A stretch of 64,000 nt of DNA from Marchantia polymorpha subsp. ruderalis (Eukaryota > Streptophyta > Marchantiopsida > Marchantiales > Marchantiaceae), in the NCBI GenBank assembly GCA_037833965.1, contig AP031358.1, positions 9,866,001 to 9,930,000 on the forward strand, in the 5' to 3' direction. Under the pieces are notes generated by a model, which worked only from the letters and a program-made list of their open reading frames with translations, was not told the origin of the DNA and made no database searches. The position numbers were made by a program, and so were the translations under genes. This document shows positions 4,278 through 23,345 of this stretch, in pieces. Numbering within the stretch: the stretch's first letter is position 1; every line of letters begins with the position of its first letter.

Positions 4278-4459
4278 ACAATCCAATGGTGACACAAACT
4301 GGTCTTAGGTTTTCACCTCACTATGAACAAATGTCACTCGGATTAGGTAGTATAGCATTTAGTGCATCATATAGAAGCATTCTTATTGCATGTTTCGCAG
4401 ATTTGCTAAATAATTAGAGGATCATTTGACGGATAGTATCATTTTTAACCACTTGTCTT
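4278..4459. mobile_element. Left part of an interrupted palindromic MITE-like element
   Basis: This piece matches the reverse complement of the far right end of the segment at 23346-24508 (for example ctaggttttca..., tagaagcattcttattgca, acttgtctt). It is therefore one arm of a palindromic element whose remainder lies beyond the big retrotransposon. The break falls exactly at the tctt duplication. No transposase is visible, so it would be non-autonomous. Confidence 0.75.
4456..4459. other. Target-site duplication (left) of the outer Ty3/gypsy element
   Basis: tctt precedes the terminal TG at 4460 and reappears directly after the terminal CA at 23341. Joining the two flanks reproduces the uninterrupted sequence found on the opposite arm of the host palindrome, which supports both the site and the 4-bp length. 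Confidence 0.8.
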
Positions 4460-4869
4460 TGTCGTGCGACTCGGTATCGCCATACATCATACATTGCTGA
4501 CATGCTCTACTCACAACTCACACATACATACACAAGGAACGAGAGTGTCCACACACAAAGGTATCACAACTAAAATAAATGTCGAAACACAAATACACAG
4601 AGAGTCGAGCCAAACTCATTCCCAAAAGAGACATAGAGTCGAAGCTAGCGGGACTGACATATCCCTACGCGAAAGGCTCAACTCGAAGAACGGACAGTTT
4701 TTTGAGTTCGCCACGAATATAAACCTGGAAAGTCGACCTAGCCTACGCTCCGCGTCTCAACGTTAGCCGACTCCCAACGTTAGCCGACTCACACTCGAAT
4801 CCAACATGTCTGAACTCAAATCGACACCAACGTCGATCTGCAACTGCACTAACCTGCATACACATGACA
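4460..4869 (-). repeat. 3' LTR of the outer element, about 410 bp
   Basis: It begins TG and ends CA on the plus strand. Bases 4572-4869 align with 23065-23341 at roughly 95 percent by eye, with two small indels including a 16-bp tandem duplication (caacgttagccgactc) present only here. Bases 4460-4571 are the segment missing from the right-hand LTR. Confidence 0.7.
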
Positions 4870-4871
4870 GC

Positions 4872-4983
4872 TGTCGTGCGACTCGGTATCGCCATACATC
4901 ATACATCGCTGACATGCTCTACTCACAACTCACACATACATACACAAGGAACGAGAGTGTCCACACACAAAGGTATCACAACT
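4872..4983. repeat. Extra 112-bp copy of one end of the LTR
   Basis: This repeats 4460-4571 with one mismatch. It is joined to the full LTR through two bases (gc), giving CA-gc-TG, and lies between that LTR and the purine tract. It looks like a truncated second LTR in tandem. Confidence 0.75.
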
Positions 4984-5141: not shown

Positions 5142-5495
5142 TCATCTACCCTTTGATGTACATCGAGGACAAACCCACCGTCCAGTAGGAACATCGATAG
5201 GTGGAGTCAAGCACAACATGTGCCATCCCCTATAACATCTATCACACACCAACATATAGGCCGCCTGATCAGCTGACCCACATAACATGCACCTCAAGCC
5301 GGCACGTACAATCGCCAAGCTTGGATCTATAATACCATCAACGTTTGGGAGGTGGCATGGCGTAGAGTTGCGCACATGATCCTTCCAAACGACACCATCA
5401 CGACCCTCCAACATGAGAACTCCAGAAGGTAACACCTCTCGCACTCGCAAAATAGTGCGTCCTGCCGTCACATCCAAAGTAGTCGGTGCAGTCTG
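5142..5495 (-). pseudogene. C-terminal PHD finger of the outer element's pol
   Basis: In frame with integrase across a TAG at 5496-5498, this segment carries a complete C4HC3 PHD zinc finger at about 5160-5291. Ligand spacing is C-x2-C-x11-C-x2-C-x4-H-x2-C-x13-C-x2-C, with the diagnostic Trp two residues before the seventh ligand (WVCPRC) and a CDRCYRGWHMLC core. PHD fingers usually read histone H3 tails, so it could tether the integration complex to chosen chromatin, taking the place of the chromodomain of chromoviruses; that role is inference. The frame ends at a TGA (5142-5144). No residue of the finger itself is lost, although the gene as a whole is broken. Confidence 0.85.
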
Positions 5496-6740
5496 CTATA
5501 AATAGACGTAGTCTCCCACACAGAACCTACGAATCGATGGTCGATAACCTCCTCCTCGAATAGTTGCATACCGCAATGTATCCCTGTGCTGAACAATCGC
5601 AAGGTTCTCGAACGCTGCAGGCATAACTCTCTGAAAGAGCACTGCACGTTGAGAACACACTCTCACCCACATATCTAGATCATCAAGGTTCACCACCTCG
5701 CTAGACTCACGACGAATCGCTGCAGGCAAGTCTGGATCTCGGCCGTACAATAGAAAATATGGTGAAAACAAAGCCAAGGATGCTTGACGACTGAATCGAT
5801 ATCCCATGGCCAACCATGGTAACTGAATATCCCAGTCCCCAAGATGCCCCTTCTGTAGGCCATACTTGCGCAACGCTCTCTTCACCGTCTGTATCATCCG
5901 CTCAGCCAAACCATCCGCCTCTGGATGATCTCGGGAAGTAGTCCGGTGATCAATCAGCGTCTTGTCACACAAGACCTGAAACTATGTCCCATGATCGGTC
6001 AACACCTCAACTGGTGCACCAAAGTGACTAAGCACCCTGTCAAGGAAAGCATATGCTACTCCCTCACTCGCCTTGTCATGTAATGCCACCAACTCATTCC
6101 ACTTGGAGAAATGCTCCACCATCACCAACACATACCGATGATGTCGTGCAGTCAAAGGTAGTGGTCGAGCAAAGTCCAAACTCCAACGGTAACCCAATCC
6201 CATGATAGGTAAGGGATGTAACTCTGGTGTCGGGGCATTGAACGATGCCCTCACTCGATCACAAACCATGCAACATGATACCAACTGCTGTACCTGCGTA
6301 TGCATACCACGCCACCAATATTGACCTAGGAGTAAACTGTTCATACGCTTCACTCCAAAATGTCCCAATCCTCATGAGCATGCCTCACAATGCGTGCTCT
6401 CTGAGCTGGATGCGGTACTACTCGTACCCTACCATCCTCCCACACTCGGAGAACATGTGATACCTCCAATCGGTATCTCTTCGCTCGCTGGAGAACACGA
6501 TCTCGCTCCTTGGCACCCACTGTGCCTGACACCATACTGGTCCGTAAGAACTCCAACACCAACGCATCATCGTGAACATCACGCTGGTCCTTACCACCAT
6601 CCTCAACCTCAGGATTCGAAGACTTACTATCTACTCTCTGACTAGAGTAAGATGTCAAGTGGTCCTCACTGCTAGAGGCTCCACGTAACCAACACATGAA
6701 GGCAGATGCATGCCAACCGGGCACCATCTCCTCATCAACC
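5496..6740 (-). pseudogene. Integrase of the outer element (broken)
   Basis: The zinc-binding region ends in SCCMVCDRV; the catalytic core shows WSLDFARPLP, LTDHGT and the Glu-bearing PEADGLAERM, so the D-D-E set can be traced; the C-terminal part has GDYVYL and then a small beta-rich segment. Breaks: a one-base frameshift at about 6350-6368, just before the zinc-binding motif GHFGVKRM; a TGA at 6749; a TAG at 5982 right after LTDHGT; and a TAG at 5496. Integrase would insert the element's cDNA and make the 4-bp duplication seen at the ends. The family assignment is secure; function is lost. Confidence 0.85.
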
Positions 6741-6772: not shown

Positions 6773-8257
6773 CTAGCTAGTGCATGGGTTCCGACTCAAA
6801 CCGTCGGCATCCAAGTTCGCAACTCCAGGCCTATGCACCACCTGAAAGTCGTACTCCTGTAAGATGAAAGCCCACCGTGCAAGCTTCCCTGTGAGCTTGT
6901 CAGACTTCATCAACCACTTGAGCGGTTGATGATCGGTAACAAGGGTAAACTGCGTACCAAACAAGTAGCACCTAAAGTGTGCCACAGCCCACACCGCTGC
7001 CAAACACTCTCCCTTGTACGAACTATACCGCGACTCTGCTGCATTGTTCGAACGATTAGCGTACGCAATCACAAACTCCTTGCCCTCATCATCACACTGC
7101 GTCAACACCGTTCCAAGTCCCAACATACTCTAATAAGTGTGCAACTGGTATGGACGACCTCTCATATGTCTCCTCAAGATGGGAGCGGCCACCAACTTGG
7201 CCTTGAGCTCAACAAAAGCTCTCTCTTGCTCATCTTCCCATTGCCACTCCTGATCCGACTTCAGCAACTGGTTCAAAAGCTTTGCTATAGCACTGAATCC
7301 CTTCACATACCTCCGATAATAGTTCGCCAAACCCATGAATGCACAAACTCTACTCACATCCGCTGGACAAGGAATGCGCGCAATAGCCTCCACTTTTGCC
7401 TGCTGAACTCCCAAACCACCTGGGTAGATCACATGACCCAAGTACTCCATCTTCTACTGGAAGAACCTACACTTCCCAGGATGTAACCGCAAACCATGAG
7501 CCCTCAAGCGCTCAAGCAAAATCTGCAAATGTATCTGGTGTTGCTCCACCGTGTCGCTAAACACCAAGATATCATCAATGTAATATCTGACAAAATCTAG
7601 CCCCGCTAGAATTCTGTCCATCATTCTCTGGAACTCGGCAGGTGCATTCTTCAACCCAAAGGGTAAGAATCGCCATTGATACAAACAATCCTTGCCATGG
7701 GAGTTGACTTTCCAAAACGCTGTCTTGACCTTGTCCTCCTCCTGAATCGGCAACTGATGGTATCCTGCTCGAAGATCCAAAGTACTAAACATCCTCGCAT
7801 GTCCCACCACATCGAAGATCTACTCAGGTGTAGGCATGGCATACTTATCGGCCTTCGTCTGCCGATTGATAGGACGGTAGTCTCCGCACATGCGCCTATC
7901 CGTGTAGTTGCCATGTACATCCTTCTTCGCCGGCATAACAGTGGCTGAAGCATACTCACCATGCGACAACTCCACTAACCCAGCCTCCAATAACTCCAAC
8001 GTCCGACTCCGAATCAAATCCCTTTTCATATCACTATATCGATAGGGACGACGGAAGATTGGCGTATCACTAGCCAACTCTATCCGTATGTCGGGTCCAA
8101 TCAAAGTATCCAACTCCTTCATACTGAAAGCAAAACAAATCCTATATTCATGTAGGAATTGTGTCAACCGTCGCCACTCTCCTCCGGTGATCTGAGAACC
8201 AATCGATGGCTCCCACTCCTCCTTCATGGACCCACAAGAGGGAGGCGATATTGTCAC
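6773..8257 (-). pseudogene. Reverse transcriptase and RNase H of the outer element (broken)
   Basis: RT signatures run in order: KELDTLIGP and the RRPYRYSDMKRD entry region, MPAKKDVHGNY, CGDYRPIN, FSTLDLRAGYHQ, FLPFGLKNAPAEFQ and the catalytic YYIDDILVF at about 7570-7580, then EYLGHVI and MGLANYYRRYV. RNase H follows with TDHQPLKWL and the HRPGVANLDADGLSR tail. In-frame TAG codons sit at 7820, 7454, 7130 and 6773. At the RNase H start the conserved first catalytic Asp is Tyr, immediately followed by a TAG (7130). RT Asp residues are intact, so decay has been by scattered point changes. Confidence 0.9.
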
Positions 8258-8263
8258 TAGTTG

Positions 8264-9480
8264 CTATGACACCTCTTCCAAAGAAGGGTTCTCCGTACCC
8301 TCCTTCGTAGCAACCTCCCCGTGACCAACATCTCCAACTTCATGGGCGTCCACTCTCGCAAGTCCTCTCGTCACGTCCCATGAACTCCAAGGATGACGAA
8401 TATCTCGCAAGTCGCCCCAAACCATTGCCACCACCATCCCGGTAGGCAATGAGCTAATAAGTGATGTAACAACCACCAAATTTGCGCGCAAACGGCGTTG
8501 CTCGGCCAAACCCAAGCTCACAATCCACGTCAAGCAGTTCAGGTCCATAGCCTGACCCAAAACCTGACGACGCGACGCCTCTGAAACTGAAGAAGTCGCG
8601 GTCACAGCAGTCAGAAACCCCATCGCACGCTCTCTCTCATCAGCGTTGGGCTCCCTCAACTGATGTATGGTACTGTACCACAGTAGTCCAGGTCCGCCAT
8701 CACGATATGCATGTGATGCCGGATAACTGACCAACGTAGGCAAAGCCATCCAAGGCTGACCTACGTGGTTCACCAATGCCATGAGTGACCTATCCGCCAC
8801 TCTCACCACCTGAGAGTATCGAGAGACATCCAAGATCCTGTCAACGGTGAATGTAGGATCACGATGCATAGAATCATACGCATGACGCAATATCTCTCGT
8901 GGTACAAGGTTGGTCCATCATAAACGTGCACAATGAGCACGTGAACCAACCCTCGCAGCATCCAACAACACTGCTGATCCAATCTATGCCTTGACCTCAT
9001 GGACACTCACCATCAATTGAGCTTGAGTGTCACCCAACAACGGTACGTTCTCTAGAATGTATGCTCGAGAACGTGTCTGCTGCTCCTGAAGATGACGTAA
9101 CACTCGTAGCATCTCCCATAACATCCGAGATCTGGAATCATGTAAACCCGCTCCATGCCCCGCGCGTGTGTGCCCCTGACATGGCCATCCCGCAATCACC
9201 AAATTGATATGTCCAACTCGATCAAGGTCTGGCGCACCCAACAATGAAATGTCGGAAGGCAACGCCCTCTGGTATCCTCGAACAGCTGATCGCGGCAACA
9301 ACAAAGGAAAACGCTGCATCAACTGTGTAACATGTCGTGAAGAAACTCGACGGGCCGTCTCGTCCTTCTCCACGTACAAGTATCTACGTACGAGAATACC
9401 TGACTGCAACACTGCAGCCAAACCTATGCTGATATCCCCAAAAAGATCCAGCAAACAAACACCCTATAGGGAATACTCCC
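8264..9480 (-). pseudogene. DNMT3-like C5 cytosine methyltransferase domain in pol
   Basis: The frame between protease and RT encodes a C5 DNA methyltransferase of about 320 residues. Motif I (LDLFGDISIGL, cofactor binding) is at about 9420-9451; motif IV with the catalytic Cys (GWPCQGHTRAG) has PCQ at 9176-9184; motif VI (ILENVP) has ENV at 9044-9052; motif VIII (GSRAHCARL) is near 8930; motifs IX-X (ERERAMGF, SRRQVLGQAMDLN) run to about 8537. The spacing from AMGF to LGQ and the motif VIII form resemble DNMT3 more than MET1, CMT or DRM. In-frame stops are at 9464 (TAG), 8984 (TAG), 8918 (TGA) and 8264 (TAG), so it is inactive here although the catalytic motifs survive. It would methylate cytosines; acting on element cDNA or host chromatin is inference. 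Confidence 0.9.
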
Positions 9481-9556: not shown

Positions 9557-10308
9557 CTATGCTGGTAAAGAGGCCTCACTCCAAGCCTTCTTCACCAACC
9601 TATCCGCCTCTTGTTGTAAAGCGTGGCAAGAACTCCAAAGTGGGACATCCAGAGGTGATGACCCTGCCGCTACGAGGCTCACAATCTACTCCATCTTCTC
9701 ATAGACTGGAGTATCCTCGGTTGACCTGTTCCCCTCCAACAAGTCATCAGGCCATGTGAGCACTCCACTGAAACCCACAATAGAGGCTAAAACTGCAGGA
9801 GAAGATCCAAGAGGTCGATCTCGAGAAATGAACCTCACAGGCAGCTCACTCATACGTCCATCACCGGACTCCCAACCAAGGCGATAAGCTGTCGTCTCCG
9901 TCCAATAATCCATCCGAAATCCCATTGGATATAACACCGCTCCACCAACAAGCACATCATATGAATCTGCTGATGTAACCACCGCTCGAACTCCAAACTG
10001 CGAGCTATCATGAGCATGACCATGCCTCAACTGCACTAATATGCGCTCTCTGGTCATCCTGTAAGACATGTCGCTGGTGCCACCGAGTGATGTCTGAATC
10101 TAAAACGGACAAGGCTCCAACTCGGACCTCCAAATTCCCAAACTAATGCAGGCAATCTTGCCCAACATCAAAGGCTGAGCACCAGAATCCAGCAACACTC
10201 TGGCTGGGACATACACCTGCCCTGTAGCACTCACCAAGCGAAATACACCGCTCCGGTTGTCCACCATACATACACCAGATACAACCCTCTCTCGATCAAT
10301 GGCTGGTC
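9557..10308 (-). pseudogene. Aspartic protease and linker of the outer element (broken)
   Basis: The protease active site reads VLLDSGAQPLML (DSGA at about 10178-10189), the retropepsin form that would process the gag-pol polyprotein. A second conserved stretch, SYDVLVGGAVLY, lies downstream near 9945-9965, followed by a linker of no recognised domain leading to the methyltransferase. TAG codons interrupt the frame at 10100, 9686 and 9557. The upstream end at 10308 is where the nested retrotransposon inserted; the frame resumes on the far side at 18163. Confidence 0.85.
10305..10308. other. Target-site duplication (left) of the nested Ty3/gypsy element
   Basis: ggtc precedes the terminal TG of the nested element and recurs at 18163-18166 directly after its terminal CA. 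Confidence 0.9.
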
Positions 10309-11167
10309 TGTAAGACCGGGTGTTGCACATATGTACTAAGTCTTAGAAGTGGTCAAGGGAATAAGGATGATTAGCCAAGGCATAGCTAAGACTAGCTAGT
10401 TATGACTAAACTAGTTAGTTATAACTAAGTTTATCTAGTCATGACTAAGTTTAGCTACAATGTCTATAGTTGGCGGAGTAATTAGCGGAGTTCTAGAAGA
10501 ATGGAGTGAGCACTTCTATTTTGTCTTTTACAAGGAGTGAGCACTTCTATTTTGTCTTATACAAAAGTTCTAGATTCCAAGGGATTAGATATTTGACTAG
10601 AAGCTTGGATTTGATTGGTTTGACTAAATGTATGAAAGATGATTGGCTAGACTAAGTCTAATGTTGACTTAGTGGCTAGGAAGCTTGTAGAAGTTTAAAA
10701 GCTTCCAATGGCATGTCGCCACCTCAACCTTGGATTCCGGAAGCTTCTAGAAGGTTTAGGTAGGCCAATGGCATGTTGCCACGTAGAGAAGGTTAGTCAA
10801 ACTTACCTAGGTAAAAGTAAGTTAGGAGAAATTACCACATGTTACTATGGTAACTTCTCAAGTAGTATAAATAGAGAGGTAGAGTAGCACCTCTCAAGCA
10901 AGTTTGGAGAGTCATGTGTGAGGACTTGTTTCAGTAATGAAGGAGTGAAGTTTTTGAGTATCTTGGAGTATCGACGTGTGTTTGCATTTATGTGAAGAGG
11001 GTGATGTGAGGAGAGTTTGTGTGTGAGTTGGAGTGATACATGAGAGTTTGTAAGAGAAGGTGTTTGGGACATGAGTGAGAGTATGAATCTTAGTCTTCTA
11101 GAACCATGATGCGCTACCACAAAGCCATCAGAGGTAAACCTGAGTGAGAGTCAGCCCGGAGGTTGCA
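10309..11167 (+). repeat. 5' LTR of the nested element
   Basis: 859 bp, beginning tgtaagaccggg and ending ggaggttgca. It contains a TATA box at 10866-10873. An imperfect internal repeat of about 29 bp (gagtgagcacttctattttgtctt) occurs twice near 10505-10560. Confidence 0.97.
10866..10873 (+). promoter_or_regulatory. TATA box in the 5' LTR
   Basis: tataaata lies 557 bp into the LTR, about 300 bp before its end, consistent with transcription starting in the LTR. The same motif is at 17861-17868 in the 3' LTR. Confidence 0.75.
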
Positions 11168-11171
11168 TTTT

Positions 11172-11190
11172 TGGTTCCGTTGCCGGGACC
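11172..11190 (+). other. Primer binding site of the nested element
   Basis: tggttccgttgccgggacc begins four bases after the LTR. It is the complement of a tRNA 3' end finishing in CCA and closely resembles the Asp-tRNA sites of plant Athila-type elements, with two changes next to the CCA complement. Confidence 0.7.
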
Positions 11191-11844
11191 TCAATCTAGA
11201 AGGCGGAATGTTTAGGATTCGATTTCTAGCTCGAGAGAAAGTATCCATGAGGGATCACTTGGTGTTAACATTGGGGAATGAAAGAGCGGAGAGTGTGCTT
11301 GAGAGCGAAATTCCCTTTGTTTATCCCATAGTCTCATATGATAGCCTAGAAGTGATTTTGTATGTTTTGTTCACGTAAACATGTCTTTTTGAGAGAAAAG
11401 TGATTTTAGACACCGAAGAAGTATTTTTGAAGTTTTTCTTCAAAGTTTTTATTGATTTTAGATTGGAAGATAGAGAACGTTTACGTTTTTGTTTTAGGTC
11501 TAGAGCATGTGTAAACAAAAAGATATGAGAGTTAGAAGTTGAGGGGTTTTCACGGGTATCAAAAGTCTGCTCTCTGGAAAGTTTGTACAGAGTTGATTAC
11601 TTTTTCTGTATTTCAATTTAGGCTTTGAAACTTCGTACGAGTGTGTATTAGAAGATAAGCTACGTTTGAGTCAAAATTTCACTGAGAGATCACGTCTAGA
11701 GACAAAGTTATTATGATTTGAAGTTGAGGGGGTACAAAAGCAAGATAACAAAGCAAAAGTTTTTGATTTCTTCATTCACAGTTTTCGTCAAGTAGATAGC
11801 GTTTCTGGGAGAGGTCTTTTGAGTGGTTTCTGTCTTATGGGAAA

Positions 11845-12288
11845 ATGAGTGAACAAGAAGGTTGGAAGATTAGGTTATCCAAAGTACCTCAAGGCTTGGA
11901 TGTTATAGTGTCTTTAGACTCCAATACAAGAGAATTCAAGGTAGAGTTTGAAGAAAGAGTAGTGAGTCAATCTCCAAGAGTCAAACGTGAAACTTGTTTT
12001 TATTGTGGAGAGGAGGGCCATAAGGTTGTCAATTGTTCCCTACGGAACAAAGATAGAAGATTGAGGAGCAAGAGGAACTTGGGAGATTTGAAACTTCACT
12101 TGGGACCATCATCGCCACATGAATCCCAAAGCGCGACCTTCTGTGACAATTGCGGAGTGATTGGGCTACCAGCGGGACACGAATGCAGCGGAGTGAAGGC
12201 ACTTCTGGAATCACTTGTGGAAGGGTTTGACGGCAAGCTAAGTGCTGAAACAGAGAAAGTGACCTCAGCGGGTTCAAGCTCCAACTGA
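11845..12288 (+). CDS. Small zinc-knuckle protein upstream of gag-pol
   Basis: A 147-residue ORF starting at an ATG, between the LTR and the gag-pol frame. Residues about 53-66 form a retroviral-type knuckle CFYCGEEGHKVVNC (C-x2-C-x4-H-x4-C). A second Cys/His cluster, CDNCGVIGLPAGHEC, follows at about residues 99-113. The gag-pol frame has its own gag and knuckle, so this is an extra product. The frame shifted by one base continues past the stop with an acidic stretch (NDGEDDDEGK) to about 12470, so the ORF may once have been longer or be read by frameshifting. A role in RNA binding or packaging is inference from the knuckle. Confidence 0.6.
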   Translation: MSEQEGWKIRLSKVPQGLDVIVSLDSNTREFKVEFEERVVSQSPRVKRETCFYCGEEGHKVVNCSLRNKDRRLRSKRNLGDLKLHLGPSSPHESQSATFCDNCGVIGLPAGHECSGVKALLESLVEGFDGKLSAETEKVTSAGSSSN

Positions 12289-12513
12289 AGATGGAGATCA
12301 TCATTCGAATGATGGAGAAGATGATGATGAGGGTAAGACTCATCGTATGCCTAGGAGAGGAGAGAGCTTTGGCTATCTTGGAACAACCAATTCCTTTTGT
12401 GTTTCCTTTGATGAATTACTCAAGGATGGAGTTAGTGTTGTTTATATTGTATTAGGAAGCCCCATATAAATTTCCAATAAAATAAAAATAAAAATAAAAA
12501 AAATTAGTTGGAA

Positions 12514-15500
12514 ATGGGGAAGCTTCCGGTATTTTATGGGAGGGAGAATGAGGATGTAGAAGCTTTTGTTAGGGACTTCAAGAGGGCTTGCATAGGAAAC
12601 AATGAGAGGAAGAAGGACGAGTGGGCTATGCTTTTGCCGGATTTCTTGGAGGATTCTGCTCTCAAGTGGTACAAGGAGTACAAGAGGGAGCATTCGGAGG
12701 ACGACACGTGGGAGACATTAACGGAGAACCTGATCGAAAACTTTCTTCCCAGTGAAAGTTATGAAAAGTTGATGTGTGAGGTCACCTTCTTGAAACAAGG
12801 AGAGAACGAGAAGGTGAGGACCTATGTGGAGAGAACCGAGAAGTTGGAATCTAGATTCCACGTGGTGTTGAGGAAGGGCGGAGACGAAGTGGATGCTACA
12901 ATGGTGGGGATAAGGGCGATGCTCATGAAGAACTTCGTTGGAGGTTTGAGACCTGAGATTCGAAGTAAGGTGAGATACGAGAAGCCCTCTTCTAAGGCTG
13001 AAGCCATTCGAATTGCTATTAGAATGGAGGAGAGCTTAGAAGATGATGATTCTAGCTTGGTGGCTAGAGAAGTAGCTCCACCAGTTGTAGGAAGGTCCAT
13101 TGTTTCAAACCCTTCTACTTCATCCACGATAGCGAATCCTAGTGTGGATTTTCAAAATGAATTGAAATCTATCACGGAGACTCTAGCAGATCTCAAGATC
13201 AATGTAGTACAGTTGTGGGAGAAGAGGAATCAGAACGTAGGAGGAGGCTCTAGGGGGTATGGAAATTATCCTCCAAGAGGAAATCCACCTTCAGGAAACT
13301 TTGCGGTTTCTTGCTTTTCTTGTGGAGGTCCTCATTTCCAGAGGAATTGTCCTAACCCTCGACAACATGATGGAGTTCGGCACAACAACAATGCACCGGC
13401 CACGCAACAAGCCAAGGATAAGGGAGTAGCATCCATTGATGTATTTCCTCATCAATGCACTTTTGAGAAAGGGGAGAGCTCAAAATCGAAAGTGGATATC
13501 CTTGCTCATGAGAAGAAGCGTGCCCGATTTGCGGACGAGTCGATTTTCATGGAGGACACGCCAAGTCGAAGTACACGGTCAAGTGGAGTGAGTCAACCAA
13601 GAGTACCAAGGAAGAAGTTGGGCATGGATGACTTTTCCATTTCATCTTCTCAAGCTAAGTATGACGTGGTGGAGGATGTAGGAAATCAGAAGGCCAATAT
13701 AACAGTTGGTCAGCTGATTGCCTTGAATCCAGCCATTCGGAAGGAGTTAAGAGGAGGTCTTATCTCCACAAGGACCAAGAAGCGGAAATCTAAGGGGAAG
13801 GCTCACATGACCAATGTGGGAGTTGGGGTGGTGGATGCGGCTGCTTCGGAGGTATGTACACATGCTTCAAAGATCGAAGTGAGGATCAATGGACATGATG
13901 TATCAGATGTGTTGGTTGATGGTGGATCGGCTGTGAATGCCATGTCTGAGAGGTTGATGCAGAAGTTGGGTATGCAACCTTCTAGACCTTCTAGCATAAT
14001 TGTTGGTATGGCCAACAAACAGAAGGTAAGACCACTGGGGGTGGTAGACAAAGTTGTGGTTAGTGTGAGGGGAGTGCAAACTTTGCTTTCCTTCCAAATT
14101 CTCAAGGAAGCTAGCTACGACTTGCTGTTGGGACGTCCTTGGTTGAGGGCGGTAAGGACTACGGACCGATGGCACAAGGGCTATTTGAGGATAGGCCCAA
14201 AGAACCATCGAGTTAAGGTTCCTTTGACGAGAGGAGGGGAATCCACCACTGACTCAGATAGACCAACTGACGAGTATTGGGAATCTGAGAGTGAAGAGAG
14301 TGGTAGCTTTTCAGAAGTTGACACAGACATCTCAACTTCTGATCAAGAAACATCATCAGAGTACTCTTCTGATGATAATGTTCAAGTACAAGTCATTGCT
14401 GCCATGGAGTTGTTGCCTAGGCCTGGAGTGAAGAAAGATCCTGACAAAGTGGAGATGAGCGAAGAGGAGGTGTGTCGACGACTGTCCACTCTCAGGTTTG
14501 GTCCCAAGGTTACCAAGGAGGAAAAGGCAAAGTTTCTGGATATATTTCGCAAATATATTCATGTTTTTGCCTTTAGTTACAAGGATCTTAAGCATGTGAC
14601 GTTGGAGACTCATCGCATCGAGTTGGAGGAGAAAGCTCGTCCTATTCGGCAAAAGCAACGCCGAATAAATCCACCTACGGCTCTTGTGGTGAAGGAGGAG
14701 ATCGACAAGCTCAAGGAGGCTGGCTTCATCTACGAGGTAGAAAATTCTGAATGGGTGTCTCCAATTGTGATAGTGAAGAAGAAGAATGGTAAGCTACGAG
14801 TGTGCGTAGATTACAAAAAGTTGAATGCTGTCACAAAGAAAGACTACTATCCCTTGCCTTTCATAGATGAGATTCTAGAGGAGGTTGCTGGTCATGAGTG
14901 GTATAGTTTTGGAGATGGTTATAGTGGCTATAACCAAATCCAAATTGCCTTAGAAGACCAACTCAAAACAACTTTTACCACTCCATGGGGAACCTTCGCT
15001 TTTAGAGTGATGCCGTTTGGTCTATGTAATGCTCCTGCCACTTTTCAAAGGTTCATGAATAGAGTGTTTGAACCTTTCATTGGAAAGTTTGTAAGGGATT
15101 TCATAGATGATTTTTGTGTTTACGGGAGGAAAGCGGATCATTTTGATCATTTGATCAAAATACTTCAACGGCTGGAGGAAGCTAAGGCTTCACTCAATCC
15201 AGAAAAATGCATTTTTGGATGTGAGGAAGGCCTATTGTTGGGGCATATCATCTCCAAGAATGGTATAGCGGTGGACCCAGAGAAGGTGACACGGATCATG
15301 GAGTTACCTTTTCCGGCGACTTTAACCAAGTTGAGGCAATTCCTTGGTATGGTGGGGTACTATCGACGGTTCATCTTGTCCTTCTCCAACAAAGCTCATG
15401 CCTTGACGAATTACATGAAGAAGGGAGTGGAGTACGAACTCATTTTCAAGGATGAAGCTGCAAAGAAGGCGTTCGAAGTTCTCAAGAAGGCGTTGGTGAC

Positions 15501-17280
15501 GGCTCCAATTTTGGCGAAACCGGATTGGGGTAAACCTTTCATTCTCTACACAGATGCATCAAATATTGCTGTAGGATGCACCTTGAGTCAATTAGATGAT
15601 GAAAAGCATGATCATCCAATTGCCTATGCTAGTAGACAAATGGTTCAAGCGGAGAAGAATTACTCAGTGACAGAGAGAGAGGCCTTAGCTGTAATCTTCT
15701 CACTTAAGAAGTTTCGACATTATTTGTTGGGTGGGAGATTCACTATAGTGACTGATCATAAGGCTTTGAAATACATTTTCAACAAGCCTAATGCTGAAGG
15801 GAGGATAGCTAGATGGAAGCTACTACTAGCAGAGTTTGATTATACCATTGAGGATAGACCTGGAAAGAAGCATGCTAATGCGGATTTGATGTCGAGAGCA
15901 TATGATGATGGAGGAGATCAGTCAGTAGATGACACCTTTCCGGATGAGGACTTGCTAGTCATGGACACGGTGACAACAGTACCGGAGGAGTACAAGGAAA
16001 TTTGGGATTTCATCTCTAGAGGAGAGTTTCCTCAAGGAATGCATCAAAGGGAGAAAAATGCATTAGTGAAGAGATGTCAACCTTATATGATCATGGAGAA
16101 GGTACTTTTTCATCAAGGAGCTGACGGACTTCTACGAAGGGCGGTTGGGAGAGGAGAGGCACTACAACTCATGAAGGAGTTTCATGATGGTGCAGTATGT
16201 GGAGGACATTTTGCGGGGAAGGTAACTGCCTTCAAAATTCTTGATGCTGGTTATCATTGGAAGGGTATTTTTAAGGATTGTGTGGAATATTGCAAAAGTT
16301 GTGATGTGTGTCAAGCTTTTGCTAAAAAGTCCATGAAAACCCCTCCTATGATTTCTGTACCAGTGTTAGGTCCTTTTGAAAAGTGGGGAATAGATTTTGT
16401 AGGTCCTTTGAATCTTACTCCTCGAGGGAATAAGTTCATTGTGATAGCTACAGATTATCTTACGAAGTGGGTAGAGGCAAGACCACTTAAATCTACTAAT
16501 GAGAAGGAGGTTGGTAGATTTTTATATGAGAGAATCATTACTCGATTTGGTTGTCCATTGGAGTTAGTATCAGATAGAGGAGGAGAATTTGTGGGAAGTA
16601 TGATTCAAGCCATGTTGGAGCACTTTTCCATCAAGGCTCGAGTAACCACTTCCTACAAACCTAACGCTAACGGGTTGGCGGAGCGGACCAACTACACTTT
16701 GTGTATGATGTTGGCCAAGGATGCAGACATGGACGGGAGTAAACACAATTGGGACAAGAGGCTCCATGCTATCTTATGGGAGTATCGCACAACATGGAAG
16801 ACATCTACCGGATACTCACCTTTTCGGATGGTGTATGGAGTTGAGTCAAAACTTCCCATACAGTTTGACTTGACAACATTCACAACAATCCAGCAAAGGT
16901 TGAAGAAATCAAATGGAGCAGAAGCCATCAAGTCTCGCCAACAACAATTGATGGAGTTGGAGGAAGCTCGAGCATTAGCCATGGTACGAGTGGAGCGGGC
17001 TCAACAGTTGCAGAAGAAGTATCACGACAAACGAAGTGGAAACCAGAACTTGAAGCCGTTCAAGGAAGGTGATTGGGTGATGCTCTTTGATGCAATTAGA
17101 TACAAGAGAGCTAGGAAAAAGTTTCTTCCTAAGTATTTTGGACCTTTCATAGTTGAGAAGGTGTGGGGAAATTTCACTTATGACATCAAGGAGTTAGGAG
17201 GACGTCACTTCGATCGAGTCAACCACGACAAGTTGAAGTTATTCCATCGAAGATCAGATTCTTTCACTCCGAGGGCGTAG
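12514..17280 (+). CDS. Gag-pol polyprotein of the nested Ty3/gypsy element
   Basis: One uninterrupted frame of 1,588 residues. I start it at the ATG at 12514; a stop at 12505-12507 lies just upstream. Domains in order: gag core (about 1-170), a degenerate knuckle CFSCGGPHFQRNC (about 268-280), protease with VLVDGGSAVNAMS (about 466-478; DGGS in place of DSGA, a form found in some plant gypsy elements), an acidic Ser-rich linker, RT with GYSGYNQIQIA, MPFGLCNAPATF and FIDDFCVYG, RNase H with YTDASNIAVG and TDHKALKYI, integrase with an HHCC zinc motif (ending SCDVCQ), WGIDFVGPL, VSDRGGEF and NGLAERTN, and a C-terminal GPF/Y-like segment (KYFGPFIVEKVWG). All catalytic Asp/Glu residues are present. 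It ends at a TAG followed by the purine tract. It looks translatable. Confidence 0.95.
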   Translation: MGKLPVFYGRENEDVEAFVRDFKRACIGNNERKKDEWAMLLPDFLEDSALKWYKEYKREHSEDDTWETLTENLIENFLPSESYEKLMCEVTFLKQGENEKVRTYVERTEKLESRFHVVLRKGGDEVDATMVGIRAMLMKNFVGGLRPEIRSKVRYEKPSSKAEAIRIAIRMEESLEDDDSSLVAREVAPPVVGRSIVSNPSTSSTIANPSVDFQNELKSITETLADLKINVVQLWEKRNQNVGGGSRGYGNYPPRGNPPSGNFAVSCFSCGGPHFQRNCPNPRQHDGVRHNNNAPATQQAKDKGVASIDVFPHQCTFEKGESSKSKVDILAHEKKRARFADESIFMEDTPSRSTRSSGVSQPRVPRKKLGMDDFSISSSQAKYDVVEDVGNQKANITVGQLIALNPAIRKELRGGLISTRTKKRKSKGKAHMTNVGVGVVDAAASEVCTHASKIEVRINGHDVSDVLVDGGSAVNAMSERLMQKLGMQPSRPSSIIVGMANKQKVRPLGVVDKVVVSVRGVQTLLSFQILKEASYDLLLGRPWLRAVRTTDRWHKGYLRIGPKNHRVKVPLTRGGESTTDSDRPTDEYWESESEESGSFSEVDTDISTSDQETSSEYSSDDNVQVQVIAAMELLPRPGVKKDPDKVEMSEEEVCRRLSTLRFGPKVTKEEKAKFLDIFRKYIHVFAFSYKDLKHVTLETHRIELEEKARPIRQKQRRINPPTALVVKEEIDKLKEAGFIYEVENSEWVSPIVIVKKKNGKLRVCVDYKKLNAVTKKDYYPLPFIDEILEEVAGHEWYSFGDGYSGYNQIQIALEDQLKTTFTTPWGTFAFRVMPFGLCNAPATFQRFMNRVFEPFIGKFVRDFIDDFCVYGRKADHFDHLIKILQRLEEAKASLNPEKCIFGCEEGLLLGHIISKNGIAVDPEKVTRIMELPFPATLTKLRQFLGMVGYYRRFILSFSNKAHALTNYMKKGVEYELIFKDEAAKKAFEVLKKALVTAPILAKPDWGKPFILYTDASNIAVGCTLSQLDDEKHDHPIAYASRQMVQAEKNYSVTEREALAVIFSLKKFRHYLLGGRFTIVTDHKALKYIFNKPNAEGRIARWKLLLAEFDYTIEDRPGKKHANADLMSRAYDDGGDQSVDDTFPDEDLLVMDTVTTVPEEYKEIWDFISRGEFPQGMHQREKNALVKRCQPYMIMEKVLFHQGADGLLRRAVGRGEALQLMKEFHDGAVCGGHFAGKVTAFKILDAGYHWKGIFKDCVEYCKSCDVCQAFAKKSMKTPPMISVPVLGPFEKWGIDFVGPLNLTPRGNKFIVIATDYLTKWVEARPLKSTNEKEVGRFLYERIITRFGCPLELVSDRGGEFVGSMIQAMLEHFSIKARVTTSYKPNANGLAERTNYTLCMMLAKDADMDGSKHNWDKRLHAILWEYRTTWKTSTGYSPFRMVYGVESKLPIQFDLTTFTTIQQRLKKSNGAEAIKSRQQQLMELEEARALAMVRVERAQQLQKKYHDKRSGNQNLKPFKEGDWVMLFDAIRYKRARKKFLPKYFGPFIVEKVWGNFTYDIKELGGRHFDRVNHDKLKLFHRRSDSFTPRA

Positions 17281-17289
17281 TGAAATCTT

Positions 17290-17303
17290 GGTCCGGGGGT
17301 AAA
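17290..17303 (+). other. Polypurine-type tract of the nested element
   Basis: ggtccgggggtaaa directly abuts the 3' LTR. Only the gggggtaaa part is purine-rich, but the position is right for plus-strand priming. Confidence 0.55.
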
Positions 17304-18162
17304 TGTAAGACCGGGTGTTGCACATATGTACTAAGTCTTAGAAGTGATCAAGGGAATAAGGATGATTAGCCAAGGCATAGCTAAGACTAGCTAGTTATGA
17401 CTAAACTAGTTAGTTATAACTAAGTTTATCTAGTCATGACTAAGTTTAGCTACAATGTCTATAGTTGGCGGAGTAATTAGCGGAGTTCTAGAAGAATGGA
17501 GTGAGCACTTCTATTTTGTCTTTTACAAGGAGTGAGCACTTCTATTTTGTCTTATACAAAAGTTCTAGATTCCAAGGGATTAGATATTTGACTAGAAGCT
17601 TGGATTTGATTGGTTTGACTAAATGTATGAAAGATGATTGGCTAGACTAAGTCTAATGTTGACTTAGTGGCTAGGAAGCTTGTAGAAGTTTAAAAGCTTC
17701 CAATGGCATGTCGCCACCTCAACCTTGGATTCCGGAAGCTTCTAGAAGGTTTAGGTAGGCCAATGGCATGTTGCCACGTAGAGAAGGTTAGTCAAACTTA
17801 CCTAGGTAAAAGTAAGTTAGGAGAAATTACCACATGTTACTATGGTAACTTCTCAAGTAGTATAAATAGAGAGGTAGAGTAGCACCTCTCAAGCAAGTTT
17901 GGAGAGTCATGTGTGAGGACTTGTTTCAGTAATGAAGGAGTGAAGTTTTTGAGTATCTTGGAGTATCGACGTGTGTTTGCATTTATGTGAAGAGGGTGAT
18001 GTGAGGAGAGTTTGTGTGTGAGTTGGAGTGATACATGAGAGTTTGTAAGAGAAGGTGTTTGGGACATGAGTGAGAGTATGAATCTTAGTCTTCTAGAACC
18101 ATGATGCGCTACCACAAAGCCATCAGAGGTAAACCTGAGTGAGAGTCAGCCCGGAGGTTGCA
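17304..18162 (+). repeat. 3' LTR of the nested element
   Basis: 859 bp, identical to the 5' LTR except for one base near its start. It is followed by ggtc, the second copy of the target duplication. Confidence 0.97.
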
Positions 18163-18737
18163 GGTCGGGCTGGCAAGGACTCCATCCGTGCCGCTGCCGC
18201 CTGCCATGTCGACTCATCGCTCGATGGAGTCGTAGAGGATAGCTCATCACCAATATTCTCGCATATCTCGGCACTCGTAGCAGTGATACTCCCACGTTCA
18301 CACAACGTGGCTGCTGCACGAAAAATCCGAGCCAAGTCGATCCTAGAGTCCATCAGCTCCGTAGCTGAAAATAGTGGAGATCTCATCACTGAGCTAGCCA
18401 TCCGCGTCACTGCACTAGATGGTGTGTCCGTGTCCACCACCCGTGACGTAGATGTCTCAGTCCTCCCACTAAGATCACTAGGTGGTACAGGTCTCATGGA
18501 TGAAGTACTGCCCACCTCTGACAACAAAAACGACTGGGGAAGTCTGGCCTGAGGCCCACCCTCATCCCTTTAAGGGTCCAACTTCCATGTTGCCCCGCGC
18601 GGCTCTGGAGCTCGAGCTGCAGCTCTAGTCACTGCAACCGATGCCTCCACCTGTGCTGCACTCGCTAGATAAGGAAAATCCTCTTCCTCGTAAGAGGTGG
18701 AAGTGCTCGCCCCAGAACTCGCCATAGCAGCAAGCCT
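18163..18737 (-). pseudogene. Gag-pol linker of the outer element
   Basis: The minus frame continues from gag through a Ser/Thr/Ala-rich stretch with no recognised domain up to the insertion point of the nested element, where the protease begins on the other side. A TAA at 18570-18572 interrupts it. The TAG at 18738 falls inside what looks like a continuing heptad (RIEQLE-stop-RLAAM), so that stop is probably a mutation, not a natural gag terminator. Confidence 0.6.
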
Positions 18738-20225
18738 CTACTCCAACTGCTCAATACGAGCAGCCATCGCGCTCTCTGTGGACGAAGTAGCACTCGCTAC
18801 ATGACATCCAACTACACCGGCACCTCGACCACCTCTACCAGCACGGCCACCTCGGCCTCGAGAAGCATCATCACCACGACCTCTACCACCAGATGTCAAC
18901 TCTGGATGAAGGTCAAAACACCGATCTCGAGTATGACCTGCTCGATCACAGTGGTCACACACCACTTGTGCTGACTGGGGTCTGACATGTGAACTCCGAA
19001 CTCCGGCCTTCTGGGGACAATCTCTCCGCAGATGATCCTCTCCACATGTCCAACATGCTGGTCCCTGCTGCTGGCCAGCAAACGACGGCACTGGTGCACG
19101 TGCCCATGTATCTCTAGCGGCCGTCTGGTGTCGTGTGTGCACTCCGCGACCCCCACCACTACCACCACCAAAAGGTCTAGACTGTGCCGTGCTCTGCGGG
19201 ACACGAGAAGTAGTGGCTGTGTCTCTAGCGAATGAAGAAGTCACCACTCTCTCCTCCACTATGTTAAGCTCAATCTTCTCAGAAAGAGCAAACACATAGG
19301 CCAATGTCGGTGACGCATCGCTCAAGAGGGTAGCATCCCGAACCCTCCGCCGTAGCTCTCTGTCCAGTATCTTGTACCAATACTGGACCGCCTGTGCCTC
19401 AGTTACACCGTGAGTAACTGAGATCAACCGCCGCATACGAGTGTATGCCTCTCGAAGACTTTCACCAGTCTTCCGCTCAAACTCCTGGAGACTCCTCAAC
19501 TTCTCCGTCCTCACCCCCTTATAGTTCTTCCTCAACCTCTTGAAGAACTCAGGAATGGGGCTGAACGAAGGGGTACCAGTAGTCTCCCTACTCGTGCTGG
19601 CAACGCCAACAGCACCGCTGGTGGTACCTACGCCACTAGTACCATCGGTGATGCTACCACTCGCACCTCCACTAGTACCAACACCACCCTGGGTGATCGA
19701 CATATAGTTTGGAGACCAATGACGCCTCCATGCGTCAATCTCCACAGCATACTCTCTCCCAAACTCATGGTAGTCATCCATGGGAGGCCCCTCTAGATGC
19801 TGAAACAACCCTTTCCATGCAAAGAAGGGTGTAAACAACGTGGGGTTACGCAAGAACTGCATATCACACCACGTGTCAAACTCCTGGATGAAATCATCCA
19901 ACTCAATGGTGCCCACTGCACCAGAGTACCGTCGTGGGCCCTTCATGGCCCCGTACATACCGTCCATGTCCCAAGTCCACGAGTGTGGGACCCCATATGA
20001 TATCACCACCAAAGATATGCTATCTCTCACACCCCGCGCCACTGCAACCACTGATGCGCTAGGATGAGGTAGCCGATACCTCAACCCACTCCGCGTAAAT
20101 CCTCCACGGTCCTCAACAGAACTACCAAACTCCTCCGTGATGACTAACTCACCAACCGGCACCACTGCCACAACTCCACATGCCCTCGTCCCTGCTCTAG
20201 CCCTACTGACTATGGGTATGTGCAA
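18738..20225 (-). pseudogene. Gag of the outer element
   Basis: An open minus frame of 495 codons. Its first in-frame ATG is at 19967 (WDMDGMYG); nothing upstream of that is a convincing start. A retrotransposon gag core is visible (ELDDFIQEFDTWCD, EFFKRLRKNY, SLQEFERKTGESLREAYTRM). Two zinc knuckles follow: CWTCGEDHLRRDC (C-x2-C-x3-H-x4-C) and CDHCDRAGHTRDRC (C-x2-C-x4-H-x4-C). A Gly/Arg-rich stretch (GGRGRGDDASRGRGGRAGRG) and a short coiled-coil-like end come next. Gag would form the particle and bind RNA. This is the best preserved part of the element, with no internal stop. Confidence 0.85.
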
Positions 20226-23061
20226 CCTAACCTGTCATCACCGCAAGAAGATTCTCATGGTCCACTGGGTCATCACTCTAGTCTCACCATGAGAGAAACA
20301 AAGATATGCGCCGGTGATCAAATCCAGCCACACTATCGACAGCACACTGGTGTAAAACTACTCCGTAAATCAACGTCAACCCAGACATGGACGCGCATCA
20401 AGAAGCCAGACTGGAGAGTATTCAAACACAAGCAAACAGCTAGCAACGACTCTATAGCCGAAATGAAACACAGCACAGAACAACACAACACACTGGAAGT
20501 CGCCTCGCATCGCGATCCCGAGTCGAGCTCCATCGCTCCCTGCCACCTTGGGTCACCACTGCTATCTCCTGCATCGCATCGCCAAGAGAATATCTCTGCC
20601 AAATTGTCTCGTCTGACAACTCACTTCTCCCCTTCAACTAGGGTCAGGAATCTAAAACGTCCGCCTACTCTACTCGTTCCCCAGAAGAAATGATATACTG
20701 ATGAAATGTATACTTCCACCACTTCAACTAACACATACACGAAACACTAAAAACTCTAGTATAATGTTGACCACGTCATATATATAGGAGTACAATGTTT
20801 TCGCAATCAAAAAACCATAGTAAGTGAGACGAGTGCAAATTCTCAATCTCTTCAGAATACTACTCTTCTCCCTTCTGAAATTTTCAATTTTTTTATAAAA
20901 AAATAATTTTTTTTTCTTTCTTTCTTTTGGAGACAAAACTTATAGAAAAGACTTATAAAAAATTTACAAGCGGCAGTGTGTATACTAATGATTGCCTGCA
21001 GAACCTAAAACACTAACGAGTATTCCTACTATTCGCATAAGTTAAATCAAAACATCTTGGTAGCCAAGATTGAAATAGATCCTGATACAAGCTACTGTTG
21101 GCTAATTCTTTCGCCTCATACGATATTACAGGCAGTCGTTCTTTTTTTTCAGCTTGCATATTGGAAACAGTACATATCATTTACCGCAATCCAACCACAA
21201 AGTCAAGGAATCTGCATGTATTGTAAGCCCCGATCCATAACGCCACCTGTCATTGGCACCCTACAATTCAAATTCCGTGATATTTTTGGATTTATACTTC
21301 ACTAATCTTGGTCCTAACGGAAAATGCACCAAAACACAAGCCATTATTGTGTTCTGAGATACGTTTATACATTATGTGCTTGTAGCACTTGCCCATAGGT
21401 TCCAGTTTACTGAGGTAACACTATGGTGCCTTCACGTCTGTGGGTCCAATCGCTGTACTCCAAGTGCGCATGTCCATCGCCGAATCAAGCTAAACTATTG
21501 GCTCGTTCACATGCATCAATCCAATCGCTTAACGCGTCAATAATAGTACTGAACGAGAAGCCTCGCCAATCTGATTCTTCCTATCCATTTGACACTCCAC
21601 GTTGTTGTCATGATTGCCAAAAAAAATACAGCTGAAAACCGTGGCCAGATTCAGATACAAGCCTGTATACTTCCTCAAATCAAGACCTCCGTCTCTGCTA
21701 TATTCAGGCAACCCATATGAGAGTTATATTTTCTTCGATCTTCTCCTCGCGCAAATGCTTCAGAACACGACAAACTTATGATGTGTTGAAATTGTGGTCC
21801 CGGGTTGTATGCATCTTAAGCAGCAAAGCTTCTCATGACCAGCCTTTTTCCACTTGGCAATTAGGCTTTTGTCGGCATACCACTGATATAAGCCAAACTC
21901 GAAGAGCTACTCCGAAATTATCTTCCGTCGATTATAAAGATCAGATATATATCTCGTCTTCTAGTGAGAGATTCCGAAAATAGGCCACAATGCCTCGCAT
22001 TTTCTCTTTGAGTTTTTCCGCACCCCTCTTGGACCCCTCCTTGGCAGATTTCCGGACCGAGCTCTTAGCAGACGCCCAATCTACGCCGGATCAGCCCCGC
22101 TGATCGTTGGAATCGTTCTCCTTCTCGTGTCATTCGCCAACCTTTTCGAGACCTCTCATATACAGGGTGGCATGACGGCGACGATTTCCGTCATCTGTTT
22201 GCGAAGCTGTGAAATTCTCAAAGGACGATAATTTAGTGACTGTCAAATACAGATGTTCATTAGCAAAGAGCGAGATACCAACAGAAGATGATATCGTGTC
22301 ATGACATTGTATCAGATCGATTTGGACATTGTCGCCAAATTTGGGTCCTAGCAGAAACTGCTCTCACGTGTCAAGGTCTTCAGCGAACTTATGACAATGA
22401 ATCAGTATTCTGTCATCTCCAATTTACAACACAGCTTCCAAAGCTGCTACTCCTGCGTCTGAACGACCTGCTGTGTCTCCGTGTGACATCGGAACATGAA
22501 CTCCCACTGAATGGAGTCAAATGCAAATAACGTCCCCACAGCATATGAGTGTGTTATGCTCAAGACTCTTTTCCCAAAAACTGCAGTCCGCGACACGAAC
22601 TATCAAGAACTCTTGTTCAACAAGTCGAGAGACTGCAGCGCGACCTGTCCTTCAATGCTTCGTTGAGAGAAAACAGAGAGACCAAAAGCGAAGCTAGTTT
22701 GTTGATGTATCATCCAGAATTCATCTCCTGTAGCCATCCAGAGTCTGAAGCATCATCCGACTAAGGGATAGTCCAGATCCGAAACAAAATATTAATATTT
22801 ACACTCCCCGTTTGAATGCATAGACCAACTATGCATTTTTTTCTTTCCGCTTTTCTCCAAAGCACAAATTCTACCCTTCTACCCACGGCACCTGTTCACT
22901 TCGAAGTGACTCTCCCCTCATCCTGATTAATGAACGAATAGAACCACGAAAAGAGAACCAAGAAAATCGCAAACAAAAACCTGAACACAACAACAGAATC
23001 ACTGACAGAAAATCAAGAAAAACAAAAGCCAAAATCTGAACACACTACAGTCAGTTTTTTG
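20226..23061. other. Unexplained 2.8-kb segment between gag and the right LTR
   Basis: The first 450 bp (to about 20690) are of similar composition to the element and are probably its leader. From about 20700 to 23061 I find no domain and no match to the other end of the element. A TATA-like run (atatatata at about 20778) and a T-rich tract at about 20888-20930 are present. Neither the missing 112 bp of LTR nor a convincing primer binding site could be found. It may be a further insertion, or captured host DNA. Confidence 0.4.
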
Positions 23062-23341
23062 ACTAAAATAAATGTCAAAACACAAATACACAAAGAGTCG
23101 AGCCAAACTCACTCCCAAAAGAGACATAGAGTCGAAACTAGCGGGACTAACATATCCCTACGCGAAAGGCTCAACTCAAAGAACTGACAGTTCTTTGAGT
23201 TCGCCACGAATATAAACCTGGAAAGTCGACCTAGCCTGCGCTCCGCGTCTCAACGTTACCCGACTCACACTCGAATCCAACGTGTCTGAACTCAAATTGA
23301 CACGTCAATCTGCAACTGCACTAACGTGCATACACATGACA
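23062..23341 (-). repeat. 5' LTR of the outer element, truncated on its inner side
   Basis: This 280-bp repeat matches 4569-4869 and ends CA at the target duplication. The inner 112-bp segment present twice at the left end is absent here; similarity stops abruptly at actaaaataaatgtc. Confidence 0.75.
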
Positions 23342-23345
23342 TCTT
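23342..23345. other. Target-site duplication (right) of the outer element
   Basis: tctt, matching 4456-4459. Confidence 0.8.

Follow-up and report, generated by a model that had tools for sequence, protein, structure and literature searches.

The window analyzed here, that is, the whole stretch of 64,000 nucleotides of Marchantia polymorpha subsp. ruderalis (contig AP031358.1, positions 9,866,001 to 9,930,000), contains on its minus strand a Ty3-type retrotransposon in which a DNMT3-like C5 cytosine methyltransferase is encoded between an aspartic protease (DSGA motif, recognized by eye) and a reverse transcriptase (RT; YIDD motif), followed by RNase H, an integrase and a PHD finger (Table 1). 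The protease – methyltransferase – RT order had been proposed in an earlier reading made from the letters alone (the sequence-only reading) and was confirmed; we regard the anatomy of the element as described here as almost certain. The split direct repeats, the PHD finger, the nested element and the 4-bp target duplications had escaped that reading. Judging from its coding capacity, this high-copy Marchantia element encodes an enzyme of a class whose usual role is to silence elements like it.

Sister copies in the same genome carry two open reading frames (ORFs). In ORF1 (1358–1365 amino acids in the 18 copies with long ORFs) the methyltransferase forms the C-terminal part, preceded by a gag-like part, zinc knuckles recognized by eye (one CCHC and a one-shorter variant) and the protease. 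ORF2 (1042–1045 amino acids where unbroken) specifies RT, RNase H, integrase and PHD finger. The two ORFs share a frame that is interrupted by just one TAG. The earlier proposal that the methyltransferase is built into the pol frame therefore has to be corrected, because the enzyme forms the end of ORF1 in the 18 copies with long ORFs that were read, and the RT follows in ORF2 after the conserved TAG. Its placement in one minus frame is true only if stops are ignored, as the methyltransferase frame of the window copy contains two internal stops besides the conserved one (8266–8264).

The window copy is dead: in addition to the two internal stops, ORF2 has further stops and a frame break, and the element is split by a nested long terminal repeat (LTR) retrotransposon. 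Its in-frame stops beyond these two and the conserved one are mostly TAG (by eye). Recoding of TAG as glutamine was considered and rejected, since many sister copies are open save for the conserved stop, and since the standard code gives the nested element an open frame of 1590 amino acids.

Table 1. Features of the methyltransferase-bearing element and of the element nested in it (positions of the window)
Feature	Position	Strand	Remarks
5′ part of the methyltransferase element (gag-like and zinc-knuckle part of ORF1, leader)	18160..20549	-	94% identical to sister copy L015 1570-3968
Aspartic protease region, LLDSGAQ by eye	10100..10308	-	frame; DSGA at residue 725 of sister ORF1
DNMT3-like C5 cytosine methyltransferase domain, C-terminal part of ORF1	8264..9463	-	motifs I-X in canonical order; 2 internal stops in window copy
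Family-conserved TAG stop at the methyltransferase/RT boundary, then CAA CTA	8264..8266	-	TAG in 18/18 long-ORF copies
Reverse transcriptase, start of ORF2	7454..8263	-	RVT_1 E 4.7e-28 for 7819-7454; sister ORF2 to Ty3 E 1.8e-99
RNase H	6773..7129	-	RT_RNaseH E 2.1e-31
DDE integrase and H2C2 zinc domain	5496..6371	-	Integrase_H2C2 1e-10, rve 3e-8 for 6371-5982
PHD finger, C-terminus of ORF2 (residues 69-112 of 117-amino-acid piece)	5142..5495	-	PF00628 E 1.8e-10
Split direct repeat A1, 5′ end, begins TG	23065..23341	-	matches A2; Kimura two-parameter distance (K2P) 0.053
Split direct repeat B1	4872..4983	-	K2P to B2 0.009
Split direct repeat A2, joined to B1 via GACA-GC-TGTC	4572..4871	-	
Split direct repeat B2, 3′ end, ends CA	4460..4571	-	
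4-bp target-site duplication AAGA, 3′ copy	4456..4459	-	5′ copy at 23342-23345
Nested Ty3-type LTR retrotransposon splitting the methyltransferase element, not part of it	10309..18159	+	open 1590-amino-acid frame at 12508-17280

The presence of a DNMT3-like methyltransferase in the window, also claimed from the letters alone, is borne out. The expected match to the DNA_methylase profile (PF00145) was obtained for the piece 9463–8984 of the minus strand (E 1.2e-7, 32 bits, cut-off 22; Pfam) and not for the piece 8917–8264, which taken alone gave no Pfam match up to E 0.1; motifs VIII–X continue in the same frame across the equivalent of the latter piece in open sister copies. In these copies the motifs (labels I–X are our own assignment) follow the canonical order with PCQ and ENV, as had been read in the window. 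DNMT3A and DNMT3B ranked first in sequence, profile and predicted-fold searches against the PDB, and by all three measures the enzyme is nearer to DNMT3 than to DRM, DNMT1, DNMT2 or bacterial enzymes; in the profile search DNMT3 was matched at E 2.6e-21 and the tRNA methyltransferase DNMT2 at E 1.8e-5. No CMT or DRM chain was among the 50 matches listed in the predicted-fold search, an absence which excludes nothing. The non-rearranged motif order is that of DNMT3, and an origin from DRM, whose order is rearranged, is ruled out by the position of motif I ahead of VIII–X.

A sister copy keeps the catalytic PCQG, ENVP and AHRAR, and in an alignment of 26 rows each of the residues P95 C96 Q97 G98, E139 N140 V141 P142 and A177 H178 R179 is either invariant or conserved to 90% or more. 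Because of this conservation, and of the selection described below, we consider it likely that the enzyme is catalytically active. In animals, PWWP and ADD are the accessory domains of DNMT3. No DNMT3 accessory domain was found in a sister ORF1 (Pfam, E ≤ 0.01), for which only DNA_methylase and a sub-threshold match of the gag-like part (Retrotrans_gag, E 0.0065) were reported.

Among the other domains, the protease gave no Pfam match in the window piece or in a sister ORF1, and an aspartyl protease match was found at the corresponding place in two of the relatives scanned (P0155 and P0156). The Ty3-type RT and RNase H are followed by an integrase whose triad in a sister copy (D697-D757-E792) is of the D,D-35-E type. 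The solved PHD fingers nearest to that of ORF2 are those of CHD4, PHF12, PHF21A, KDM5B and ATXR5, which we take to include readers of unmodified H3K4; the PHD finger of the element suggests, but no more than suggests, a parallel to the DNMT3 ADD domain.

The methyltransferase piece was sought throughout the genome (241 Mb in nine contigs, the window lying in C9). Of 467 candidate places 150 were scored, and all 150 matched at E 1.2e-84 or better, so that the enzyme is present in many sister copies; in 26 of the 150 (hand count) the match contains no stop and ORF1 is open for at least 1348 amino acids. The 20 stretches that were read, each of 10 kb and including the window copy, fall into two subfamilies, A (9 copies and the window copy) and B (10 copies), whose DNA is approx. 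87% identical. Copies found through the methyltransferase are silent on how often it is absent; we therefore also started from the RT (3106 candidates, 150 scored). Among the 20 best RT hits, 18 carry the methyltransferase at the standard spacing, whereas for the other two, which may lack it, the nearest listed match lies 11.7 and 25.5 kb away.

Comparison of the subfamilies gave ratios of nonsynonymous to synonymous substitution rates (dN/dS) of 0.12 for the methyltransferase, 0.12 for the gag-like part with the protease and 0.14 for the zinc-knuckle part of ORF1 (80 pairs from 18 copies), and of 0.06 for RT, 0.04 for RNase H, 0.08 for the integrase and 0.18 for the PHD finger of ORF2 (40 pairs from 13 copies); the value for the tail of the methyltransferase was 0.65. 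By this measure, the methyltransferase is kept under purifying selection as a part of the element. The window copy, broken and split as it is, and the two RT hits with no methyltransferase listed at the standard spacing are what might be expected of a one-off chimaera, or of a captured gene that has decayed and lost its function. Against this stand the 150 scored copies, which all carry the same protein piece and so exclude both chance and a single chimaera, the dN/dS of 0.12, the standard spacing in 18 of 20 cases and the relatives in Sphagnum, Calypogeia and Riccia; refuted by these results, the explanation retains virtually no probability.

The TAG between the ORFs is followed by CAA in all 18 long-ORF copies, and then by CCA (16 copies), CTA (one copy) or CAA (one copy). 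A genome-wide search with the junction pattern gave 176 matches with TAG and 183 when any triplet was allowed after the purine; among the matches listed, the sole triplet other than TAG was TAA, found twice. UAG-CAR-YYA is the readthrough context of tobacco mosaic virus. Because a conserved UAG-CAA stop divides ORF1 from ORF2, the stop is, on sequence grounds, likely to be passed by readthrough. In both copies that were folded a hairpin begins approx. 18 nt after the stop (z -1.42, with 17 of 200 shuffles as good, and z -2.52, with 2 of 200); the sequence of this hairpin hardly changes among the copies, too little for RNA covariation to show.

ORF2 might instead be expressed by reinitiation or from a separate transcript, as its 13th codon is an in-frame ATG and a few copies (one of the 18, others among the genome-wide TAG matches) have CAA-CAA, which departs from the CAR-YYA pattern. 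We consider this unlikely: the two ORFs lie in one frame, the hexamer after the UAG fits the tobacco mosaic type of context in 17 of the 18 copies, and four related proteins (P0155–P0158) carry methyltransferase, RT, RNase H and integrase in an unbroken frame of 2318–2374 amino acids. Sixteen other related proteins (P0139–P0154) end 73–162 amino acids past the last residue aligned with the methyltransferase. P0155 and P0160 end in a PHD finger, and none is listed for P0156–P0158. Three Marchantia gene models (P0129, P0130 and P0137) also combine the methyltransferase with RT or RNase H domains.

No terminal LTR pair was found in the window copy or in sister copy L020, where the 5′ end has only repeat A and the 3′ end B-A-B. 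In L020, A1 (293 bp) is 99.7% identical to A2, and B1-A2-B2 again forms the 3′ end; the A1/A2 distance of 0.053 and B1/B2 distance of 0.009 in the window copy indicate that the latter is the older of the two. The B1-A2 joint reads GACA-GC-TGTC in 15 of the 20 copies and was not found within the sequence stretch examined in the other five. In the three copies with both ends read, TG...CA termini are flanked by 4-bp duplications: AAGA in the window, ATCT in L020 and CAAT in L023, whose A1 is present in two pieces. For a fourth copy, L026, two short stretches (L034, which was wrongly aimed, and L036) showed no A1.

Split repeats are classically associated with the DIRS group, whose members use a tyrosine recombinase and are not known to duplicate their target. 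The Marchantia element (window copy and L020) shares the split direct repeats and differs in its 4-bp duplications. No tyrosine recombinase was found in a sister ORF1 or ORF2 (Pfam, E ≤ 0.01), or in the two frames scanned between A1 and ORF1. Because split repeats, TG...CA ends, 4-bp duplications and a D,D-35-E triad go together in this element, we conclude that a retroviral-type integrase serves a DIRS-type repeat plan. The B1-GC-A2 joint may represent an end-to-end junction that the element keeps in store and uses to restore its termini, the two bases GC being lost at integration. Tandem copies were rejected as proof of circles: L019 (C2:20742761-20751516) contains two head-to-tail copies approx. 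8.3 kb apart with sequence common at the joint, which recombination between A repeats explains equally well. Recombination between B1 and B2 can account for copies that end after B1 (L018, L027 and L028). Repeat A2 was compared in L014–L017 and L020–L023; copies of subfamily A diverge strongly in repeat A (L017 versus L015) and barely in B and the coding part.

Compared with Ty3/gypsy LTR retrotransposons (Metaviridae), the element has RT and RNase H sequences nearest to Ty3, an integrase of the retroviral type and the protease – RT – RNase H – integrase order, but it has A1 ... B1-A2-B2 in place of a terminal LTR pair and possesses the methyltransferase and PHD finger in addition. The closest described element, and as far as its published description allows one of the same kind, is KnitGypsy-Dnmt3 of Klebsormidium nitens. 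It combines gypsy-type domains, a non-rearranged Dnmt3 in Pol and DIRS-like repeats, with Ka/Ks below 0.2 (de Mendoza et al. 2018, PMC5890265). The two elements are alike in uniting gypsy domains, a Dnmt3 in the polyprotein and DIRS-like repeats, and in purifying selection (0.12 here). They differ in their hosts (land plants here, namely liverworts and Sphagnum), in the methyltransferase, which here ends ORF1 before a conserved UAG, and in the PHD finger on the integrase, a term absent from the main text of that paper; TG...CA ends and 4-bp duplications were read in the Marchantia element. SymbioDIRS-Dnmt3 and SymbioLINE-Dnmt of dinoflagellates, as far as the same source describes them, also have the enzyme inside a retrotransposon reading frame, but employ DIRS and LINE machinery rather than a Ty3-type RT and a DDE integrase (PMC5890265). 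A survey of 2025, citing the 2018 paper, mentions that LTR and DIRS retrotransposons in streptophytes and dinoflagellates contain embedded DNMT3 members (PMC12344493), and an opinion paper of 2019 states that land plants such as tracheophytes lack transposons of this type (PMC6338049). Searches of the open-licence literature brought up no title or abstract that reports similar elements from bryophytes.

The origin of the enzyme was examined with a tree of 63 rows and 284 columns, comprising two copies from this genome, 25 of 160 listed relatives, 14 plant-type DNMT3s with the host gene L031, 19 other enzymes and two host DRMs. The 27 element enzymes (Marchantia, Sphagnum, Calypogeia, Riccia and other contigs) lie on one side of a branch (support 100/100), and another branch (100/99) sets off the 15 plant-type DNMT3s. 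The DRMs and other enzymes lie outside both groups, and the tree as a whole is subject to a long-branch warning. The host gene L031 and MpDNMT3a, of which the host has an orthologue, fall among the plant DNMT3s and hence are not the immediate source; capture from the present host, which the sequence-only reading had inferred, is rejected, as the element enzymes form a clade of their own. The listed plant DNMT3s, MpDNMT3a among them, also differ in carrying PF11926, no further DNMT3 domain, of the animal DNMT3A/DNMT3B or the plant type, being reported for a sister ORF1 (Pfam, E ≤ 0.01). Within the element clade the Marchantia rows group with Sphagnum, Riccia and other rows to the exclusion of the liverwort Calypogeia (99/92), a branching against host kinship which could mean several old lineages or horizontal transfer.

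The MpDNMT3a orthologue of this genome was located by exon pieces matching C2:6436922-6444359, with 83–100% identity in 12 of 13 and 58% in one. L031 is a second DNMT3-type gene, approx. 50% identical to MpDNMT3a, and L032 and L033 are DRM-type genes with the rearranged motif order. The M. polymorpha protein P0121 is 97% identical over the whole 676-residue query. P0035, an element-type methyltransferase filed under a bacterial metagenome bin (Candidatus Obscuribacterales), probably comes from a misbinned eukaryotic contig.

We favour, as somewhat the better supported account, that this is an old Ty3-like lineage with DIRS-type split repeats which carries a DNMT3-class methyltransferase as a selected part and uses it to methylate its own new cDNA or insertion. 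Most ribosomes would halt at the UAG and yield a Gag-protease-methyltransferase protein, and a few would read through to produce the RT-integrase-PHD protein; because most would stop just after the methyltransferase, the enzyme would be packed at the level of Gag. It would then methylate the new cDNA or new insertion de novo, and the PHD finger on the integrase may help to choose chromatin without active H3K4 marks. The benefit would lie in insertions that bear a silent mark from the start and do little harm to the host, or that escape treatment as foreign, unmethylated DNA. That cDNA or the insertion is the actual substrate is quite possible, though short of probable. In the 2018 paper, retrotransposon DNMTs are reported to methylate CG de novo, and its authors suggest self-methylation of retrotranscribed DNA (PMC5890265).

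The enzyme may instead methylate RNA (genomic RNA or the primer), or mainly bind nucleic acid in the particle. As the C-terminus of the Gag-side protein it would meet RNA first, and the 2018 paper raises RNA methylation for a LINE-borne relative that showed no DNA methylation in a yeast test (PMC5890265). Sequence and profile, however, place the enzyme with DNMT3, far above DNMT2 in score, and we regard this alternative as quite improbable.

The window copy bears probable traces of methylation. Among 206 changes derived in it relative to five sisters (10308–4984), 119 are C-to-T/G-to-A, and these affect 25 of 445 CG sites (0.056), 32 of 428 CHG sites (0.075) and 54 of 1631 CHH sites (0.033; CHG versus CHH, p 3e-4; CG versus CHH, p 0.035). 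This excess at CG and CHG over CHH indicates that the copy was probably methylated in the past at both contexts. Such marks would be left if the enzyme acted in trans as a self-restraint, methylating resident copies of the family so that their number stays tolerable and host and element persist, and slowed retrotransposition is among the roles floated in the 2018 paper (PMC5890265). Yet host maintenance enzymes could leave the same marks, the copy number is high, some copies are young (as judged from the nearly identical A1 and A2 of L020), and selection within a single element lineage would hardly favour restraint in trans; this reading therefore seems improbable, if less so than action on RNA.

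Our preferred account, self-methylation of new copies, can be extended into a fuller scheme that we offer tentatively, as rather doubtful in its entirety. In this scheme the element would be a hybrid of DIRS-type replication and retroviral-type integration, storing its own junction (B1-GC-A2, with the palindrome GACAGCTGTC) as a template for the termini, which the DDE integrase would trim to TG...CA. The DNMT3-type enzyme, packed at the Gag level, would methylate each new copy before or at integration, and the PHD finger would read the target chromatin. The enzyme would have been acquired once and carried by streptophyte elements since before the split of mosses and liverworts, or would have moved between them.

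Because such elements are abundant in Marchantia and have relatives from Sphagnum, Calypogeia and Riccia, counts of bryophyte DNMTs need to be checked for copies that belong to elements. A selfish candidate de novo methyltransferase is now at hand inside a tractable model genus, and why a silencing enzyme rides in its own target is directly testable in Marchantia; the stop-codon architecture and the combination of split repeats with a DDE integrase each provide simple new ways to test its replication.

Between A1 and ORF1 of L020, a subfamily B copy, we found a frame of 253 amino acids antisense to the element (L029 3174-3932, minus strand) that matches Sec63/Brl (PF02889, E 6e-35) and presumably derives from a Brr2-type helicase; the element seems to have carried off fragments of host genes. 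Parts of this 5′ stretch of L020 recur in L023 and L026. The LTR stretches of the element nested in the window copy are near-identical (one difference in 300 ungapped bases), which indicates that it is young.
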